Shown piece by piece: positions 37,499 to 44,919 of a DNA stretch of 64,000 bases. Made by a program: the position numbers and the translations under genes. Origin of the DNA: Planctomycetota bacterium (GTDB lineage Bacteria > Planctomycetota > Phycisphaerae > Phycisphaerales > SM1A02). Below the pieces are notes generated by a model, which saw only the letters and a list, made by a program, of their open reading frames with translations, was not told where the DNA came from and did no database searches. How positions within the stretch are numbered: the stretch's first letter is position 1; every line of letters begins with the position of its first letter. The stretch covers positions 62,001 through 126,000 of the forward strand of contig VGYX01000005.1 of the NCBI GenBank assembly GCA_016872835.1, in the 5' to 3' direction.

Positions 37499-38281
37499 CT
37501 AGAGCGCGCTTCGGAGTTCCCAGAGATCCGGGAAGAGCGGCTGGAAGAGCGTGGACTTCAGGTACTGCACGCCGGCGGAGCCGCCCGTGCCGGGCTTCGA
37601 GCCGATGGTGCGCTCGACCATCTTCACGTGGCGGTAGCGCCACTCCTGCACGCCCTCGTCGAGATCGACCAGCGACTCGCAGAACGCGTGCACGGGTCCG
37701 ACCTGGCGATAGATCGGAAGGAGCATGGCCTGCATGGCCGGATCGGCGGCAGGAGGCATCTCGGGATCCCGGTGCAGGGTGCTTGGTGGAACCGTGTGGC
37801 CAAGCTTGGCGAGTCCCTGCACGAAACTGCTCCAGACCGAGGGTGCATGAACGCGCTTCTGCAACTCGGCGCGCTCGGGGGAGCCGACCGGATAGCGCTC
37901 GACCGCCTTCGCGTTCTTCTGGCCAAGCATCATCTCGAAGGCGCGGAACTGCCAGCTCTGGAAGCCGCTGGCGCTGGTGAGGAACTCGCGGAACTGCAGG
38001 AACGAGACGGGCGACATGGTCTCGAGCACGTCGATCTGCGCGACCATGGTCTTCAGGATCTTCAGCATGCGCGCAAGCGTGTCACCGGCGCGCTCGAACG
38101 CTCCGTCCTGCAGCAAGGCGCACAGTCGGTCCCCCTCGTGCAGCTGCTGCCGGAACCACAGCTCGTACACCTGATGGATGACGATGAACAGCAGCTCGTC
38201 GTGCTCGACCGGCGTGCCGACGGGCTGTTGCAGCGAAAGAAGCTCTGGAACCTTCAGGTAACGGCCGTAGGAGATGTCCAC
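37499..38281 (-). CDS. kynA: Tryptophan 2,3-dioxygenase
   Basis: The haem enzyme that opens the indole ring of L-Trp to N-formylkynurenine, first step of the kynurenine pathway. Signature blocks are all present: 'YGRYLKVPELL', 'LFIVIHQVYELWFRQ' (active-site His36), 'SGFQSWQFRAFE', and 'EWRYRHVKMVERTIG' (axial haem His218) followed by 'KPGTGGSAGVQYL'. 260 residues, normal for bacteria. No other kyn gene is nearby. GTG start; its leaderless-type promoter lies in the 3' end of the desaturase gene, which it overlaps by 28 bases. Confidence 0.97.
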   Translation of the reverse strand: MDISYGRYLKVPELLSLQQPVGTPVEHDELLFIVIHQVYELWFRQQLHEGDRLCALLQDGAFERAGDTLARMLKILKTMVAQIDVLETMSPVSFLQFREFLTSASGFQSWQFRAFEMMLGQKNAKAVERYPVGSPERAELQKRVHAPSVWSSFVQGLAKLGHTVPPSTLHRDPEMPPAADPAMQAMLLPIYRQVGPVHAFCESLVDLDEGVQEWRYRHVKMVERTIGSKPGTGGSAGVQYLKSTLFQPLFPDLWELRSAL

Positions 38282-39864
38282 GCCGACAGGCTAGCGGAGC
38301 GGCGGTGGGACGACGGTGGTGCCTGATCGATCGCGCAGGGCAGGCCGAGTCGCTCGCACAGCATGCGCGAGGTGGTCTGCGCCGAGAGGAAGATGACGGG
38401 CAGGCCGGAACCCGGGTGCGTACCGCCACCGACCAACCACACGCCATCGACGTCCTGCAACTTGTGCTGCGGGCGACGATGGAGCATCTGGCCGAGATTG
38501 TGCGCCAGATTGAAGGTGGCTCCGAACTGGATGCCTTCGCCCTGCCAGTCGAGCGGGGTGACCTGACGTTCCACACGGATTCGGCTGCGGATGTCGCGCA
38601 GGCCGAAGGTCTCCTCCAGCTGGCGGTAGGTGCGCTCGCGCAGCGTGGGGGCCTGCGCGTGCCAGTCGACATGGTTCAGGCCGGGCTGCACGTTGGGCGT
38701 GGGCACCAGCACGTACAGGCTCGACGCGCCGCGCGGCGCCATCGTTGGATCGATCGGCGCCGGATTGCACACGTACATCGAGGGATCCTCGCTGAGCGTG
38801 CCGTTCGTGGCGATGTCGGCCAGATTCTGCTCGTAGCTGCGACTCACGTAGATCGTGTGATGAGGCAGATCGACCTCGCCGTCGAGCCCCAGATAGAGCA
38901 TGAAGGTGCTGCAGCTGTAACGGCTGCGCTCGATGCGTCGGTCGGTCCACGTCCGGCGCAGGTGCGAGGGCACCAGACGGCGCATAGCGCTTGCGGCATC
39001 GGCGTTCACCACCACGTGTCGGTGGCGGCGCAGCGAGCCGTCGACCTGCACGCCCGTGGCGCGACACCCTTCGAAGTCGATCGCCTGCACTTCGCATCCC
39101 GTGTGGAACCGCACGCCGAGTTCCTCGGCGATCTCGGCCATGGCGCGCATGAGAGCGTTGCAGCCGCCCGTCGGATGCCAGATGCCGTACTCGTACTCGA
39201 TGAACGGCAGGATGCTGAAGAGCTCCGGGCACTCGAAGGGACTCATGCCCAGATACTTGCTCTGGAAGCTCATCGACAGACGGATCGAGGGGTTGCGGAA
39301 GTACCCCTTGAGGTGGTCGTAGAGGCTCTGCCAGGGGCGCAGGTGCGGGCCCGCGCGCATGGCGTCGAGCGAGGCGAGATCGAGGACACTGCGGATCGGC
39401 TTGCGCAGCAGCGGCGTCATGGCCGTGAGCTTGCGACGGTTGTCGGCGATGAATCGCAGGAAGGCAGGGCCATCGTGCGGCTCGATGCGCGAGAGCCGTT
39501 CCGACATGCGCGCGAGATCCTGCGTGGTGTCGAGCGTGATCGGTGCACCTTCGGGCTGGCCAAGCAGCAGGCGATACATCGGATCGAGGCGGGTGAGCTC
39601 CACGCGATCGGAGAGCTTGCGACCGGCGGCCGCAAGAATCTCGTCGAGCACGTAGGGCATCATGAAGAAGGTGGGGCCGACGTCGAAATGATGGTCGCCC
39701 AAGCTGAGCCGGCGGGTGCGGCCGCCGAGGACCGGCTGGCGCTCGTAGACGTCCACGCTGGCACCGCTTGCGGCAAGCAGGATCGCGGCTGACAGTCCGC
39801 CGGGACCAGCGCCGACGATGCCGACATCGGATAAGTGGCGTACGCTTCGTTCCTCAGCGATCAT
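38254..39864 (-). CDS. Carotenoid desaturase/oxidase (CrtI/CrtN family), probably C30 pathway
   Basis: An FAD-dependent phytoene-desaturase-type enzyme. The dinucleotide motif is 'GIVGAGPGGLSAAILLA' near the N-terminus with 'DVYERQPVLGGRTRR', and the family C-terminal motif 'WLVGGGTHPGSGLPVIFLS' binds FAD. With the divergent aldehyde dehydrogenase, second CrtI-like gene, glycosyltransferase and acyltransferase, it fits the squalene-derived C30 carotenoid route known from planctomycetes, as desaturase (CrtN) or terminal oxidase (CrtP). Which step cannot be told. ATG at 39864 is preferred; the frame extends further upstream but the FAD fold starts right here. 536 residues. Confidence 0.88.
   Translation of the reverse strand: MIAEERSVRHLSDVGIVGAGPGGLSAAILLAASGASVDVYERQPVLGGRTRRLSLGDHHFDVGPTFFMMPYVLDEILAAAGRKLSDRVELTRLDPMYRLLLGQPEGAPITLDTTQDLARMSERLSRIEPHDGPAFLRFIADNRRKLTAMTPLLRKPIRSVLDLASLDAMRAGPHLRPWQSLYDHLKGYFRNPSIRLSMSFQSKYLGMSPFECPELFSILPFIEYEYGIWHPTGGCNALMRAMAEIAEELGVRFHTGCEVQAIDFEGCRATGVQVDGSLRRHRHVVVNADAASAMRRLVPSHLRRTWTDRRIERSRYSCSTFMLYLGLDGEVDLPHHTIYVSRSYEQNLADIATNGTLSEDPSMYVCNPAPIDPTMAPRGASSLYVLVPTPNVQPGLNHVDWHAQAPTLRERTYRQLEETFGLRDIRSRIRVERQVTPLDWQGEGIQFGATFNLAHNLGQMLHRRPQHKLQDVDGVWLVGGGTHPGSGLPVIFLSAQTTSRMLCERLGLPCAIDQAPPSSHRRSASLSAWTSPTAVT
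38288..38293 (-). promoter_or_regulatory. TANNNT box, leaderless promoter of kynA
   Basis: TAGCCT on the minus strand is six bases before the kynA GTG and lies inside the end of the desaturase coding region, so kynA could be transcribed on its own. Confidence 0.45.
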
Positions 39865-39870
39865 GGTGAA

Positions 39871-39931
39871 GATTCGATCCCCTCTATCGTACAGATTCGT
39901 TGCGAATCCGCAGGGATGCCTTGATCGAATC
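39871..39931. promoter_or_regulatory. Nested palindrome in the divergent carotenoid promoter region
   Basis: Four copies of a 6-base unit lie symmetrically around 39901: GATTCG at 39871 and 39894, CGAATC at 39903 and 39926. The inner pair forms GATTCG-TTG-CGAATC, and the outer pair extends to 9-base perfect arms (GATTCGATC, 39871-39879; GATCGAATC, 39923-39931). Same-arm units are 23 bases apart, about two helix turns. The probable -10 of the desaturase gene (TACGAT, minus strand 39891-39886) lies between the left units. This looks like an operator for a dimeric or tetrameric regulator. Confidence 0.6.
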
Positions 39932-39954: not shown

Positions 39955-41415
39955 ATGAGCATGGCGGATCCGAACACCCTCATCTGTCGCCGGACACTCT
40001 CGTGGGCGGATCGGCTTCGGTGGCTGCGCCGCTTCCGCCGAGCCGTCGCGGCGCACGGCCGGGACTTGGCCCGGGTGATCGCCGAGGAGGTGGGCAAGCC
40101 GGAATCAGAAGCCTATGTCAGCGAGGTGCTGCCGCTGGTGGCCTCCATCCGCTGGCACGAGGCATGCGCCGGTTCGATTCTGGGCTCGCGCCCCGCCTGG
40201 GGTCGCCCGGGCTGGCTGCTTGGCAGGACCGTGACCCTGCAGCGCGCGCCTCTTGGGCGGGTGCTGATCATCGCGACATGGAACTATCCGGCGGGACTTC
40301 TTGGCATCCAGTTGCTGCAGGGGATCGCCGCCGGCAATCAGGTCACGGTGAAGCCGTCGGAGCGCTCGCCTGAGTCGCAGCGCCTGCTGGTCCGACTCGC
40401 GGCGTCGTGCGGTCTTCCGGACGGCTGGATCGAGCTCGCTGACGCCTCGCGCGCGGAAGGTGAGCGACTGGTCGCCCATGGCGGCTTCGACAAGGTGATC
40501 TTCACGGGCGGCAGTGGCACGGGGCTGACCGTGGCGAAGATGTGCGCGGAGTCGCTGACCCCATCGGTGCTGGAGCTCAGTGGACGTGACAGCGCGCTGG
40601 TGCTTTCGGACGCGGATCCGGCGCTTGCGGCGCGACGGCTCTGGCTTGCCTTCACCATGAACGCGGGGCAGACGTGCATGGCGCCGCGGCGCGCGCTGGT
40701 GGATCGCTCGGTGTATCGGGCGTTCCTCGACGCGATGGCTCCGCTCGCCGCCGGGGCGCGACCGGTGCGCCTGGTCGATGCCATCGAGGCGCAGCGTTGC
40801 ACGACGCTGGTGAACGAGGCGCTGGCGTTGGGCGCGCGCAGCCTGAGCGGCGTGGCCGAGGCCGCCTCGGATGGATGGATGCGACCGATCGTCGCGGTGG
40901 ATTGCCCGGCGCATGCGCCGCTGGTGCATGGCGAGCACTTCGGGCCGGTGATGGCGGTGGTGCCGGTGGATGGCTTGCACGAGGCGCTCGCGATGCATCG
41001 TCGCAACGCGCATGTGCTGGCCACGAGCGTCTTCTCGCGTTCGGCGCGCCGACTGCAGCGCAACGAGGCCTTCGTGCAGTCGCTCGGCTCCTCGGTGGTG
41101 ACCTTCAACGAGTGTGTGACGCCGACGGGACACCCCGGCGTCTCGATCGCGGGCCGAGGCGCGAGCGGCTGGGGCGCCTCGCGCGGCGAGGCCGGCCTGC
41201 TGGAACTCACGCGGCCGCTTTCGGTTTCGCGCACGGCGTCGTGGACGCCGGATGCGGAGCCGCCGCCGCCACGGATGCTTGGCATGCTGGATCACATGGT
41301 GCGGTGGTGGCATGGCGCTCGATCGCCTGGACGGCTGGAGCACCCCGCTCGGCCCGCTTTCGAAGGAACGACGGTGGAAACGCCCGCGACCGCGGGCAAG
41401 GAGCAGCACGGATGA
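39955..41415 (+). CDS. Aldehyde dehydrogenase of the carotenoid cluster (AldH-like)
   Basis: An NAD(P)-dependent aldehyde dehydrogenase. Visible are the cofactor Lys ('VTVKPSERSPES'), the glycine motif 'FTGGSGTG', the general base Glu ('LELSGRDSAL'), and the nucleophile Cys in 'NAGQTCMAPRRAL'. In C30 carotenoid pathways such an enzyme oxidises the terminal aldehyde of a diapocarotenoid to the acid before it is glycosylated; this role is inferred from the cluster. The C-terminal ~60 residues look membrane-proximal and lower in conservation. Its stop overlaps the next gene (ATGA). A second ATG at 39961 is possible. 486 residues. Confidence 0.87.
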   Translation: MSMADPNTLICRRTLSWADRLRWLRRFRRAVAAHGRDLARVIAEEVGKPESEAYVSEVLPLVASIRWHEACAGSILGSRPAWGRPGWLLGRTVTLQRAPLGRVLIIATWNYPAGLLGIQLLQGIAAGNQVTVKPSERSPESQRLLVRLAASCGLPDGWIELADASRAEGERLVAHGGFDKVIFTGGSGTGLTVAKMCAESLTPSVLELSGRDSALVLSDADPALAARRLWLAFTMNAGQTCMAPRRALVDRSVYRAFLDAMAPLAAGARPVRLVDAIEAQRCTTLVNEALALGARSLSGVAEAASDGWMRPIVAVDCPAHAPLVHGEHFGPVMAVVPVDGLHEALAMHRRNAHVLATSVFSRSARRLQRNEAFVQSLGSSVVTFNECVTPTGHPGVSIAGRGASGWGASRGEAGLLELTRPLSVSRTASWTPDAEPPPPRMLGMLDHMVRWWHGARSPGRLEHPARPAFEGTTVETPATAGKEQHG

Positions 41416-42992
41416 CTCGGAGCGCGATCGTGGTGGGTGGTGGCCTGGCCGGACTCGCAGCCGCGGTGGAATTGACGACCGCTGGCGTGAAGGTGACGGT
41501 CGTCGAGCGCAACGCGCACCTAGGCGGCAAGATGAACGTGCTGGACGAGGCGGGGTTCCGCTTCGACATGGGGCCCACGATCCTGACCATGCCGCAGGTG
41601 GTGCGGGGCATCATCGCGCGCAGCGGAAGGCACCCCGAGGACTACCTGTCGCTCGTGCGTCTGGATCCGCAGTGGCGCTGCCTCTACGAGGACGGCACGC
41701 GCGTGGACCTGCTGGAGGACGTGGGACGCATGGCGGCGGCGATGGACCGCCAGTTCCCGGGGCGCGGTGCGGGCGAGGGCTGGCGACGCTTCATTGACTG
41801 GAGTCGCCGGATGTATCGCCTGAGCGACAAGGTCTTCTTCTACAAGGATCTTGGCGGCATCGTGGACCTGATGCGTAAGCCGCCGGCGAACGATCCCGGT
41901 CTGCTGGGCGACGTGCTGGCGATGCGCATGCACAGCACGGTGGCACGAACGGTGCACAAGTGGATCGGCGAGCCGCACCTGCGTCAGCTGAGCGAGCACT
42001 TCCTTCAGTACGTGGGATCGAGTCCGTTCCTGTCGCCGTCGATCCTGGGCCTGATCGCCTCGGCGCAGGTGGACCACGGCTGCTGGTACGCGATGGGGGG
42101 CACGCGGCAGGTCGCGCGCTCGCTCGAGCGGATCCTTCGCGAGGAACACGCGGAACTGATCACCGGCGCCGCCGTGAAGCGCATCGTGCAGCGCGGTGGC
42201 GTGGCGGTGGGCGTGGAACTGGAGGATGGCCGCGCGCTGCAGGCGGATCTGGTGGTGAGCAACTGCGACGTGCAGCGCACCTACCGCGACCTGCTGGGCG
42301 ACGGTTCGAGCCTGCGCGAGCAGCAGGTGATCGCCTCGCGTTACACGCCGGCGTGCAGTGGCGTGGTGCTCTATCTGGGCCTGAACCGGCAGTACGACCA
42401 TCTGCTGCACCACAACTTCCTGTTCAGTCGCGACTCGGTGGCGGAGTTCGACGACATCTACGCGAAGGGCGTTCCCGCGCGCGATCCGACGATCTACCTC
42501 TGCGTGCCCAGCCGGACCGATCCGGCGCAGGCGCCTGCGGGCGGCGAGGCGTTCTACGCGCTCATCCACACGCCGTATCGACGCGAGGGCCAGCGTTGGG
42601 AGGGGCCTGGCGGTCTTCTGGAGCAGTATCGCCCCGTGCTGATCGAGAAGCTGAAGCGCTTCGGCATGGAGGACATCGAGCGGCACATCGTGGTGGAGCG
42701 TCATCTCACGCCGGCCAGCATCGAGCGGCTCTACAACGCCGAGGGTGGCGCGATCTACGGTCTGGCGAGCCACGGTCGCATGCGCGGCGGCTTCAAGCCG
42801 CGCAACCGCAGCTCGGTGCTTCGCAACCTGTATCTGGCGGGCGGAAGCGCGAATCCGGGCCCTGGCGTGCCGATGGTGCTGATGAGCGGCGTGACGGCCG
42901 CGCAGTCGGCGCTGCGTGATCTGGGGCTGCCGACCGAGGGCCGTGTGGCGGGTGCTGGAGCCGAGGCGTGGGCGACCGCGGCGGCGAACTGA
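41412..42992 (+). CDS. Second carotenoid desaturase/oxidase (CrtI/CrtN/CrtP family)
   Basis: An FAD enzyme with 'AIVVGGGLAGLAAAVELT' and 'VVERNAHLGGKMN' at the N-terminus, 'GTRQVARSLERIL' in the middle, and the family end motif 'LYLAGGSANPGPGVPMVLM'. It begins in the stop of the aldehyde dehydrogenase and ends inside the acyltransferase gene, so all four plus-strand genes form one operon. It is clearly diverged from the desaturase at 38.3-39.9 kb; one of the two should desaturate dehydrosqualene or squalene and the other oxidise the end group. 526 residues. Confidence 0.9.
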   Translation: MTRSAIVVGGGLAGLAAAVELTTAGVKVTVVERNAHLGGKMNVLDEAGFRFDMGPTILTMPQVVRGIIARSGRHPEDYLSLVRLDPQWRCLYEDGTRVDLLEDVGRMAAAMDRQFPGRGAGEGWRRFIDWSRRMYRLSDKVFFYKDLGGIVDLMRKPPANDPGLLGDVLAMRMHSTVARTVHKWIGEPHLRQLSEHFLQYVGSSPFLSPSILGLIASAQVDHGCWYAMGGTRQVARSLERILREEHAELITGAAVKRIVQRGGVAVGVELEDGRALQADLVVSNCDVQRTYRDLLGDGSSLREQQVIASRYTPACSGVVLYLGLNRQYDHLLHHNFLFSRDSVAEFDDIYAKGVPARDPTIYLCVPSRTDPAQAPAGGEAFYALIHTPYRREGQRWEGPGGLLEQYRPVLIEKLKRFGMEDIERHIVVERHLTPASIERLYNAEGGAIYGLASHGRMRGGFKPRNRSSVLRNLYLAGGSANPGPGVPMVLMSGVTAAQSALRDLGLPTEGRVAGAGAEAWATAAAN

Positions 42993-43777
42993 GCGGCGTC
43001 CGCATCGAGGACGCCTGGAGCGCGCGCTTTGCCGCGTTCTTCGGCTGGTACGCGCTGCGGCAGTTGCGCGGAAGGTTTCACGCCGTCCGCATCATGCCGG
43101 GCACGCGCGAGGCGCTCGCCGAGTTGGCGGCGTACGCCGGTCCGGCGATGGTGGCGATGAACCACAGCTCCTGGTGGGATCCGATGCTGGCGGTAGCGCT
43201 GTGGCGATCCTTCTTCCAGAGCCGTTCCAGCCTGTCGCCGATGGACGCGGCGCAGTTGGCACGATTCCGATTCCTGCGCAAACTCGGCATCTTCGGCATC
43301 GATCCGGACGATCCGCGTTCGATGGAGGCGATGGGGTCGTATGTGGCACGCCGCATGACCGAGATGGATCGACCCACGATCACGCTGACGCCGCAGGGGC
43401 GCTTCACCGATGTGCGCGAGCCGGTGGTGCCACGGCCCGGCTCGGCGGCGTTGCTTGCCGCGCATGCGGGCATGCGTGCGTGGAGCCTGGCGATGGAGTA
43501 CGGATTCTGGGCCGATGCTCGCCCCGAGGTGTTCCTTCGCGTGGTGGCCGTCGAGACGCCCGCGGATCGTCGTCTGGTCGGGTGGCAGCGCACGCTCAAA
43601 GCGACGATGGAGTCCAATCAACGCGCGCTCGCCAACGCCGTGCGGTCGCGCGAGGCGGCGGCCTTTGAATGCGTCGTGGGCGGCGACGCGGCGCGCGTGC
43701 ATCCGGTGTACGACCTCTGGCTTGCGCTCACGGGCCGCGCCGGCCGGATCGACCCTTCGCGGGGACCGCGCGCATGA
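42968..43777 (+). CDS. PlsC-type acyltransferase of the carotenoid cluster (CrtO-like role)
   Basis: A lysophospholipid-acyltransferase-type fold: H-x4-D in 'MNHSSWWDP' (~65) and 'LTPQGRF' (~142) in place of the usual EGTR block. In this cluster the likely job is to acylate the carotenoid glycoside, the last step of staphyloxanthin-like products. The GTG start lies 25 bases inside the preceding gene; the family fold needs little upstream of it. The stop overlaps the glycosyltransferase (ATGA). 269 residues. Confidence 0.8.
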   Translation: MGDRGGELSGVRIEDAWSARFAAFFGWYALRQLRGRFHAVRIMPGTREALAELAAYAGPAMVAMNHSSWWDPMLAVALWRSFFQSRSSLSPMDAAQLARFRFLRKLGIFGIDPDDPRSMEAMGSYVARRMTEMDRPTITLTPQGRFTDVREPVVPRPGSAALLAAHAGMRAWSLAMEYGFWADARPEVFLRVVAVETPADRRLVGWQRTLKATMESNQRALANAVRSREAAAFECVVGGDAARVHPVYDLWLALTGRAGRIDPSRGPRA

Positions 43778-44919
43778 CGGTCGAGCTGTCCACGGTGACC
43801 GGATGGGCGATGGTCGGATGCGCGGCGATGCCGTGCGTGATGACCGCGTGGAACCTCATGCTCTACAGGCGCCCACCGCTGACGGGTGAGCCGCTGGGCG
43901 AGCAGGACCGGGTCGATGTCTGCATTCCTGCGCGCAATGAGGCCGCGAACATCGAGGCGTGCGTCCAAGGCGTGCTGGCGTCGGTCGAGGTGCCGGTTCG
44001 CGCCTGCGTGTACGACGACCAGAGCGCCGACGCGACGCCGGAGATCCTCCTCCGACTGGCACAGGCGGACGCGCGCGTGATTCGGGTTCCCACAGTACCG
44101 CTTCCAGCCGGATGGAACGGCAAGCAGTGGGGATGTGAGCGCATGGGGCGCGCGAGTGACGCCGCGTGGCTCCTGTTCACCGATGCCGACGTGCGGCTGG
44201 ATCCGCGGGCCGTCGTCGCCGCGGTTCGATTCGCGCACACGTCCGGCAGCGATCTTGTGAGCACCTTCCCGCGCGAGATCTGCGGCTCGCTGGGCGAGGC
44301 GCTGACGGTGCCGATGATCCATTTCGTGCTGCTTGGCTACCTGCCGATGGGTTTCATGCGGCGGGATCGAAGGCCCGCGCTCGCCGCCGGCTGCGGGCAG
44401 TTCCTGCTGGTGCGTCGCGAGGTCTGGCAGCGCAGCGGCGGACATGCCGCGTTCAAGGCCAGCATGCACGACGGCATCAAACTGCCGCGGAGCGTGCGCA
44501 TGAGCGGGGGGCGGACGGACCTCTTCGACGGCACGGATCTGGTGTCGTGTCGCATGTACCGTGGGTTCGCGCAGTCCTGGCGTGGCTTCGTGAAGAACGC
44601 CTACGAGGGACTTGGATCGATCGGCACGCTGCTCTTCTTCACGATCATGCATGCGGTCGGACATCTGCTGCCGTGGGCGATCGCGATCGCCGCGCTTGCG
44701 GGCGCAGCGTGGGGACACGCCCTGGTCGGTCATGCCGCGTTGGCGATCGTGCTGGCGTACCTGACGCGCGTCATGCTCGCCGTGCGCTTCCGGCAGCCGT
44801 GGAGCGCGTTGGCGCTGCACCCGTTGGGTGTGGCGCTGATGACCGCGATCCAATGGACCAGCCTCTGGGTCGCGAGGCGTGGCCGGCGTGAGTGGAAGGG
44901 GCGCGTGGCAGGCGCCTGA
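43774..44919 (+). CDS. Membrane glycosyltransferase family 2 (CrtQ-like)
   Basis: An N-terminal TM helix (~7-30), a GT2 catalytic domain (~45-270) with 'DDQSADATPEIL', the D-x-D motif in 'LLFTDADVRLD', and a substrate loop 'GWNGKQWGC', then three C-terminal TM helices (~285-375). This topology matches CrtQ-type carotenoid glycosyltransferases, and the cluster makes transfer of a sugar to a C30 carotenoic acid likely. Last gene of the plus-strand operon; the next gene is convergent, six bases on. 381 residues. Confidence 0.85.
   Translation: MTVELSTVTGWAMVGCAAMPCVMTAWNLMLYRRPPLTGEPLGEQDRVDVCIPARNEAANIEACVQGVLASVEVPVRACVYDDQSADATPEILLRLAQADARVIRVPTVPLPAGWNGKQWGCERMGRASDAAWLLFTDADVRLDPRAVVAAVRFAHTSGSDLVSTFPREICGSLGEALTVPMIHFVLLGYLPMGFMRRDRRPALAAGCGQFLLVRREVWQRSGGHAAFKASMHDGIKLPRSVRMSGGRTDLFDGTDLVSCRMYRGFAQSWRGFVKNAYEGLGSIGTLLFFTIMHAVGHLLPWAIAIAALAGAAWGHALVGHAALAIVLAYLTRVMLAVRFRQPWSALALHPLGVALMTAIQWTSLWVARRGRREWKGRVAGA

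Follow-up and report, generated by a model that had tools for sequence, protein, structure and literature searches.

What reads the short intergenic element that separates the two divergent halves of a planctomycete carotenoid cluster, and does its symmetry have a role? The window, a 64,000-nucleotide stretch of DNA from a Planctomycetota bacterium, includes such a cluster, and between its two halves there is a 61-bp nested palindrome (nucleotides 39871 to 39931). Comparison of this locus with those of relatives suggests that the element is, with high probability, a head-to-head pair of divergent promoters for an alternative sigma factor of the ECF type, RpoE- or SigK-like, and that both promoters belong to a photo-oxidative-stress regulon.

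The carotenoid cluster and its intergenic element

Domain searches confirmed the identity of the carotenoid cluster. On the minus strand, the gene next to the gap encodes a 536-amino acid FAD carotenoid desaturase/oxidase of the crtI/crtN family (nucleotides 38254 to 39864; TIGR02734, 448 bits, and PF01593). The end of this gene is overlapped by a second gene of the same operon, coding for a tryptophan 2,3-dioxygenase-like protein (37499 to 38281, minus strand; PF03301, E 5e-60; TIGR03036 below cut-off), an unusual partner for carotenoid synthesis. The plus-strand half includes genes for an aldehyde dehydrogenase (ALDH; 39955 to 41415; PF00171, E 5e-74), a second carotenoid desaturase/oxidase of the crtI family (41412 to 42992; TIGR02734, 388 bits), a PlsC-like acyltransferase (42968 to 43777; PF01553), and a family-2 glycosyltransferase related to HpnB/CruG (43669 to 44919; PF13641; TIGR03469 and NF045692 below cut-off). 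The domain searches of the cluster genes identified enzymes only, with no CarH/LitR regulator among them, in agreement with the original prediction that the cluster has no regulator gene; nor were ECF genes found near the crt loci of relatives.

The distance between the crt desaturase ATG (39864) and the ALDH ATG (39955) leaves a gap of exactly 90 bases, the size originally given. GATTCG is found at nucleotides 39871-39876 and 39894-39899, and CGAATC at 39903-39908 and 39926-39931. The element reads GATTCGATC...GATTCG TTG CGAATC...GATCGAATC, where GATTCGATC and GATCGAATC are the left and right outer 9-base arms and base 39901 is the centre; 38 of the 61 positions are symmetric. These positions, the symmetry, the 9-base outer arms and the 23-base spacing are all exact in the sequence, as had been described. 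The palindromic arrangement in the crt/ALDH gap is beyond chance: when the gap was subjected to 20,000 dinucleotide shuffles, the inner palindrome appeared two times, one or more CGAATC-N17-CGAA[AT]C units arose four times, and units in both directions were never obtained. A genome-wide search found exactly two copies of GATTCG-N3-CGAATC in the 2.39-Mb genome, and the second one (L002), which lies across the beginning of a reading frame for an ObgE-like protein, was set aside.

Each half of the element can be described as one promoter-like unit. The unit of the crt desaturase gene (39871 to 39899, minus strand), identified by an exact match and by the conservation of its 17-bp spacer in relatives, consists of a putative -35 block CGAATC (39899-39894), the spacer, and a putative -10 block CGAATC (39876-39871) located 6 nucleotides upstream of the desaturase ATG. 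The unit of the ALDH/crt operon (39903 to 39931, plus strand), also an exact match and conserved before the ALDH gene, has its -35 block CGAATC at 39903-39908 and, after another 17-bp spacer, its -10 block CGAATC at 39926-39931. With this assignment the 23-base period of the palindrome arms is the sum of a 6-base block and a 17-base spacer, and the palindromic appearance comes from the two -35 blocks facing in opposite directions, 3 bp apart. The earlier proposal that the -10 of the minus-strand gene lies within the element is supported; the most likely -10 is the outer block at 39876-39871 itself and not an AT-rich hexamer.

A directional two-block unit in relatives

The regions upstream of relatives of the minus-strand gene (80 regions, most of them from records named as planctomycetes) include a recurrent CGAATC-N17-CGAAAC that ends just 5′ of the ATG. 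The spacer was analyzed in 74 non-redundant upstream regions, with 732 kb of the loci outside these regions, on both strands, as background. Spacer 17 directed towards the crt gene was found at 19 of the 74 loci and every other spacer at none or one, while on the opposite strand, towards ALDH, spacers of 17, 16 and 15 were found at 10, 5 and 3 loci, respectively, counts that come mostly from draft metagenome assemblies and from related sequences that are not independent. Spacer 16 is that of the ALDH direction of one clade. The background gave 0 to 3 matches per spacer in the 732 kb, and a position-weight scan produced the same picture as pattern matching.

The consensus of the unit is [CT]GAATCC-N16-CGAA[A/C/T]C, or equivalently CGAATC-N17-CGAAMC. 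The -35 block is followed by a C in 19 of 20 sites, and the -10 block is CGAAAC or CGAACC in the sites of the relatives and CGAATC in the window. The distance from the end of the -10 block to the ATG is 6 to 12 nucleotides with a mode of 7 (18 loci), which implies leaderless or nearly leaderless transcripts. In comparisons of the window with close congeners the -35 block is identical at 5 to 6 of 6 positions and the -10 block at 5 of 6, but the spacer at only 1 to 6 of 17; for the crt-direction unit and three congeners the corresponding figures are 6 of 6, 5 of 6 and 1 to 4 of 17. The blocks are conserved, then, and the identity of the spacer sequence is at or near chance. In each of three close congeners (G004, G008 and G009) the pattern YGAATC-N17-CGAAMC has only two matches genome-wide, both in the crt/ALDH gap and one per direction. 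The ALDH-direction unit is kept in 12 of 13 loci of the genus, all but G006, the weakest with two mismatches, and it is also conserved in several other genera. These are characteristics of ECF promoters: two blocks at a fixed spacing of 16 to 18 bp around a spacer of free sequence, with the position and orientation expected at the 5′ ends of genes.

The same comparison bears on the original prediction, according to which a repressor or activator would occupy the four GATTCG half-sites as two dimers or a tetramer and switch both directions. The symmetry on which that proposal was built is real and exceeds what shuffling produces, and an inner GATTCA/G-N3-4-CGAATC is kept in three congeners. However, the gap between the central -35 blocks in relatives is 0, 3, 4, 6, 12, 18, 27, 32, 37-38, 46-47, 67 or 92 bp; because it varies this much between genera, which independent promoters tolerate, no protein appears to read the full palindrome. 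Moreover, loci L005-L011 and L052 have the unit in one direction only and the palindrome is absent, single units precede unlinked glutathione peroxidase (Gpx), Bcp and photolyase genes, and the -10-side blocks prefer CGAAAC or CGAACC to the CGAATC of the -35 block. A palindromic operator is for these reasons very improbable. Conservation among relatives, which the prediction had assumed for the palindrome, is found for the directional units instead, and the idea that both divergent halves are controlled together is supported. Most likely the palindrome is incidental, its four repeats making up a single directional element that occurs twice, in divergent orientation.

The case for promoters is strong. 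The sequences themselves show the unit with its fixed spacer and its position, its retention in both directions and the target genes at which it recurs, and from these we infer the participation of a sigma factor, the start sites and the inducing signal. Each promoter would correspond to the consensus, with the blocks at -35 and -10. Leftward transcription would start at or beside the ATG of the crt desaturase gene, whose mRNA is predicted to be leaderless, and rightward transcription about 17 nucleotides before the ALDH ATG. Light or reactive oxygen would free or activate the sigma factor, and both carotenoid halves would then be transcribed together with further protective genes, among them those for photolyase, glutathione peroxidase and peroxiredoxin. 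Two features argue against a promoter pair: the -10 block of the ALDH unit lies 23 nucleotides upstream of the ATG in this genome, as opposed to the mode of 7 in relatives, and the -35 and -10 blocks are unusually alike, both including CGAA.

Other genes preceded by the unit and the candidate sigma factors

In the genome to which the window belongs, the unit is located 7 to 8 nucleotides before the ATG of genes coding for a glutathione peroxidase that appears to have a signal peptide, a peroxiredoxin of the Bcp type and a CIA30-family protein. It is also found 7 nucleotides before the ATG of a gene for a small membrane protein that belongs to no Pfam family (L196, G000:C20:5523), and a likely orthologue in another genus (L287) has the unit as well; this protein is a candidate new photoprotection gene product. 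In relatives the unit precedes three photolyase/cryptochrome genes of the PF00875 type (L286, L288, L292), a photolyase-related DPRP gene (L245), glutathione peroxidase genes (L213, L275), a short-chain dehydrogenase gene (L281), and genes for a PduO-type cobalamin adenosyltransferase in two distant genera (L161, L211). The latter hint at a link between adenosylcobalamin and a light-stress regulon. With an assumed three photolyases per 2500 genes, the probability of meeting four genes of the photolyase type in about 33 reading frames is about 1e-7. The genome-wide scan for the pattern plus an ATG has many matches inside genes and is not clean evidence alone, and its reversed control was too lenient because the reversed GAATC contains TAA. 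Some of the other matches are probably due to chance, and coincidence or a position inside a gene may explain those at NadB, a B12-binding gene (L184) and a Mg-chelatase-like AAA gene. A photo-oxidative-stress regulon sharing the unit is well supported by the genes that recur.

This coherent target set could also be accounted for by an activator or repressor other than a sigma factor, bound to tandem CGAATC-N17-CGAAMC half-sites over a separate housekeeping promoter. The resemblance between the blocks (CGAATC and CGAAAC) and a 23-bp period that is near two helical turns are consistent with such a direct-repeat site. On the other hand, the 6 to 8 nucleotides from the second block to the ATG leave no room for a downstream promoter, inspection by eye showed no Shine-Dalgarno sequence at most of these loci, and the cores of the two blocks are set exactly as far apart as those of ECF11 promoters. 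We therefore regard a direct-repeat site as improbable, and consider below the sigma factors that could read the unit as a promoter.

Ten genes of the genome pass the Sigma70_r2 cut-off, and five small ECF proteins, named after their loci, were compared: E144, E145, E147, E148 and E149. Another sigma-70 region 2 protein (L152, G000:C1:117626) has an apparent N-terminal FHA-like domain. The best candidate is E147, a lone ECF factor (G000:C10:104759-105280). With a threshold of E below 1e-45 it is present in 23 of 25 promoter-positive and 15 of 25 promoter-negative genomes (Fisher p 0.018 for the 50 genomes, uncorrected for ancestry, and shared ancestry confounds the comparison). Within the genus it is absent from G006, whose cluster lacks the motif, and from G014, which has no cluster. 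Genome G016 has four promoter matches (crt, pduO, gpx and the AAA gene), and the only ECF orthologues recognised in it are E147 and E144. The closest solved structure to E147 is Rhodobacter sphaeroides RpoE (2Q1Z, E 7e-20). Against E147 count the 15 motif-negative genomes that carry a homologue; it was also not found in three draft genomes (G009 and those of loci L012 and L037) though the promoter is present. No anti-sigma gene, whether of the ChrR type (zinc/cupin) or another, is located beside E147 at its locus, where the products of the neighbouring genes, named by eye, resemble a glycogen-debranching enzyme and a tricorn-like protease. The protease gene is found downstream of E147 across genera (L147; L228, L229, L231, L359, L364, L369). 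In addition, the unit was not found upstream of any of the ECF genes examined, in contrast to the autoregulated RpoE-ChrR systems.

Provided that the units are promoters, E147 is somewhat favoured as the factor that reads them, an assignment that is tentative. There is an appreciable chance, a little short of even, that another of the ECF factors does so, a possibility that lies within the promoter reading and is not exclusive. E144 and E149 have matches in most genomes of the genus. E144 is encoded 46 kb from crt and is present in nearly all congeners, but it is SigW/SigH-like, and the genome without the motif, G006, probably encodes a homologue. E148 is as RpoE-like as E147, R. sphaeroides RpoE being its closest solved structure too, and is adjoined by a putative membrane anti-sigma gene; it was rejected as it was not found in G004, G005 and G009. 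Directly upstream of E145 there is a gene for a B12-binding-domain protein (L145:595-2001; G000:C2, about 88262), an arrangement that could provide cobalamin-linked control of a sigma factor. The pair is kept in congeners (G004, G009 and G014), a B12-binding-domain protein could sense light, and the predicted regulon includes PduO, the enzyme that makes adenosylcobalamin. Still, E145 is found in only 6 of 16 genomes of the genus, as compared to an ALDH promoter in nearly all loci examined, and the two proteins were discarded as a light-sensing pair, being confined to one sub-clade and with the usual histidine of the B12 motif not seen by eye.

Comparison with known systems

No photoprotection regulon with such promoters in planctomycetes was found described in the open-access literature searched. 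What we see might, tentatively, be an undescribed light or reactive oxygen regulon of Phycisphaerae, with an ECF11-related sigma factor that has no linked anti-sigma factor, leaderless mRNAs for carotenoid synthesis, photolyase, peroxide defence and cobalamin adenosylation, YGAATCC-N16-CGAAMC promoters and possibly a B12-binding light sensor. The promoter reading as such provides a concrete promoter code and a target list for planctomycete photoprotection together with a named candidate sigma gene, E147, and would mean that the ECF11-type response to singlet oxygen also exists outside the Proteobacteria, in a form whose promoter sequence is shifted.

The mycobacterial SigK-RskA promoters have CCATCC at -35 and CCGAAT at -10, and ATCC and CGAA are common to them and to the unit described here. 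E147 and E148 match SigK in profile (below the curated cut-off) and in structure. Unlike in the SigK-RskA system, there is no gene for RskA at the E147 locus, and the targets are others.

RpoE-ChrR systems are autoregulated, whereas the candidate E147 has neither an adjacent ChrR gene nor a promoter of its own type. The proposed control works in a similar way, but in view of these two negative results we do not assign it to ECF11. Singlet oxygen is the signal answered by ECF11 factors (PMC6852236), and the promoters of Shewanella oneidensis RpoE2-ChrR have the sequence TGATCC-N16-CGTAA[T/C] (PMC4336711). The ATC-to-CG distance is 20 bp in every site compared, identical to that of ECF11 promoters, but the blocks are similar and not the same, with GAATCC in place of TGATCC at -35 and CGAAMC in place of CGTAA[TC] at -10; the core ATCC plus CG(T/A)A is shared with the systems of R. 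sphaeroides sigma-E and Shewanella RpoE2. A periplasmic glutathione peroxidase belongs to the Shewanella regulon, as do photolyases and a short-chain dehydrogenase, and periplasmic glutathione peroxidase, photolyase, DPRP and short-chain dehydrogenase are targets common to both (PMC4336711). The element described here differs in that it would drive carotenoid genes directly.

In Myxococcus xanthus the carotenoid desaturase gene crtIb is transcribed in the light by the ECF factor CarQ (PMC8156234), a light-inducible promoter that resembles the arrangement proposed here in placing a carotenoid desaturase under an ECF sigma factor (PMC8156234); in contrast to E147, CarQ is autoregulated and has carR-carS as linked genes. 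The MerR-type, B12-dependent CarH/CarA proteins bind as two dimers to an operator of about 55 bp at a carotenoid promoter (PMC8156234), much like the two-dimer model of the original prediction. Here, unlike at the CarH/CarA operator, relatives do not keep the symmetric layout and the units occur singly. The element would be an example of head-to-head promoters that can be mistaken for a palindromic operator.
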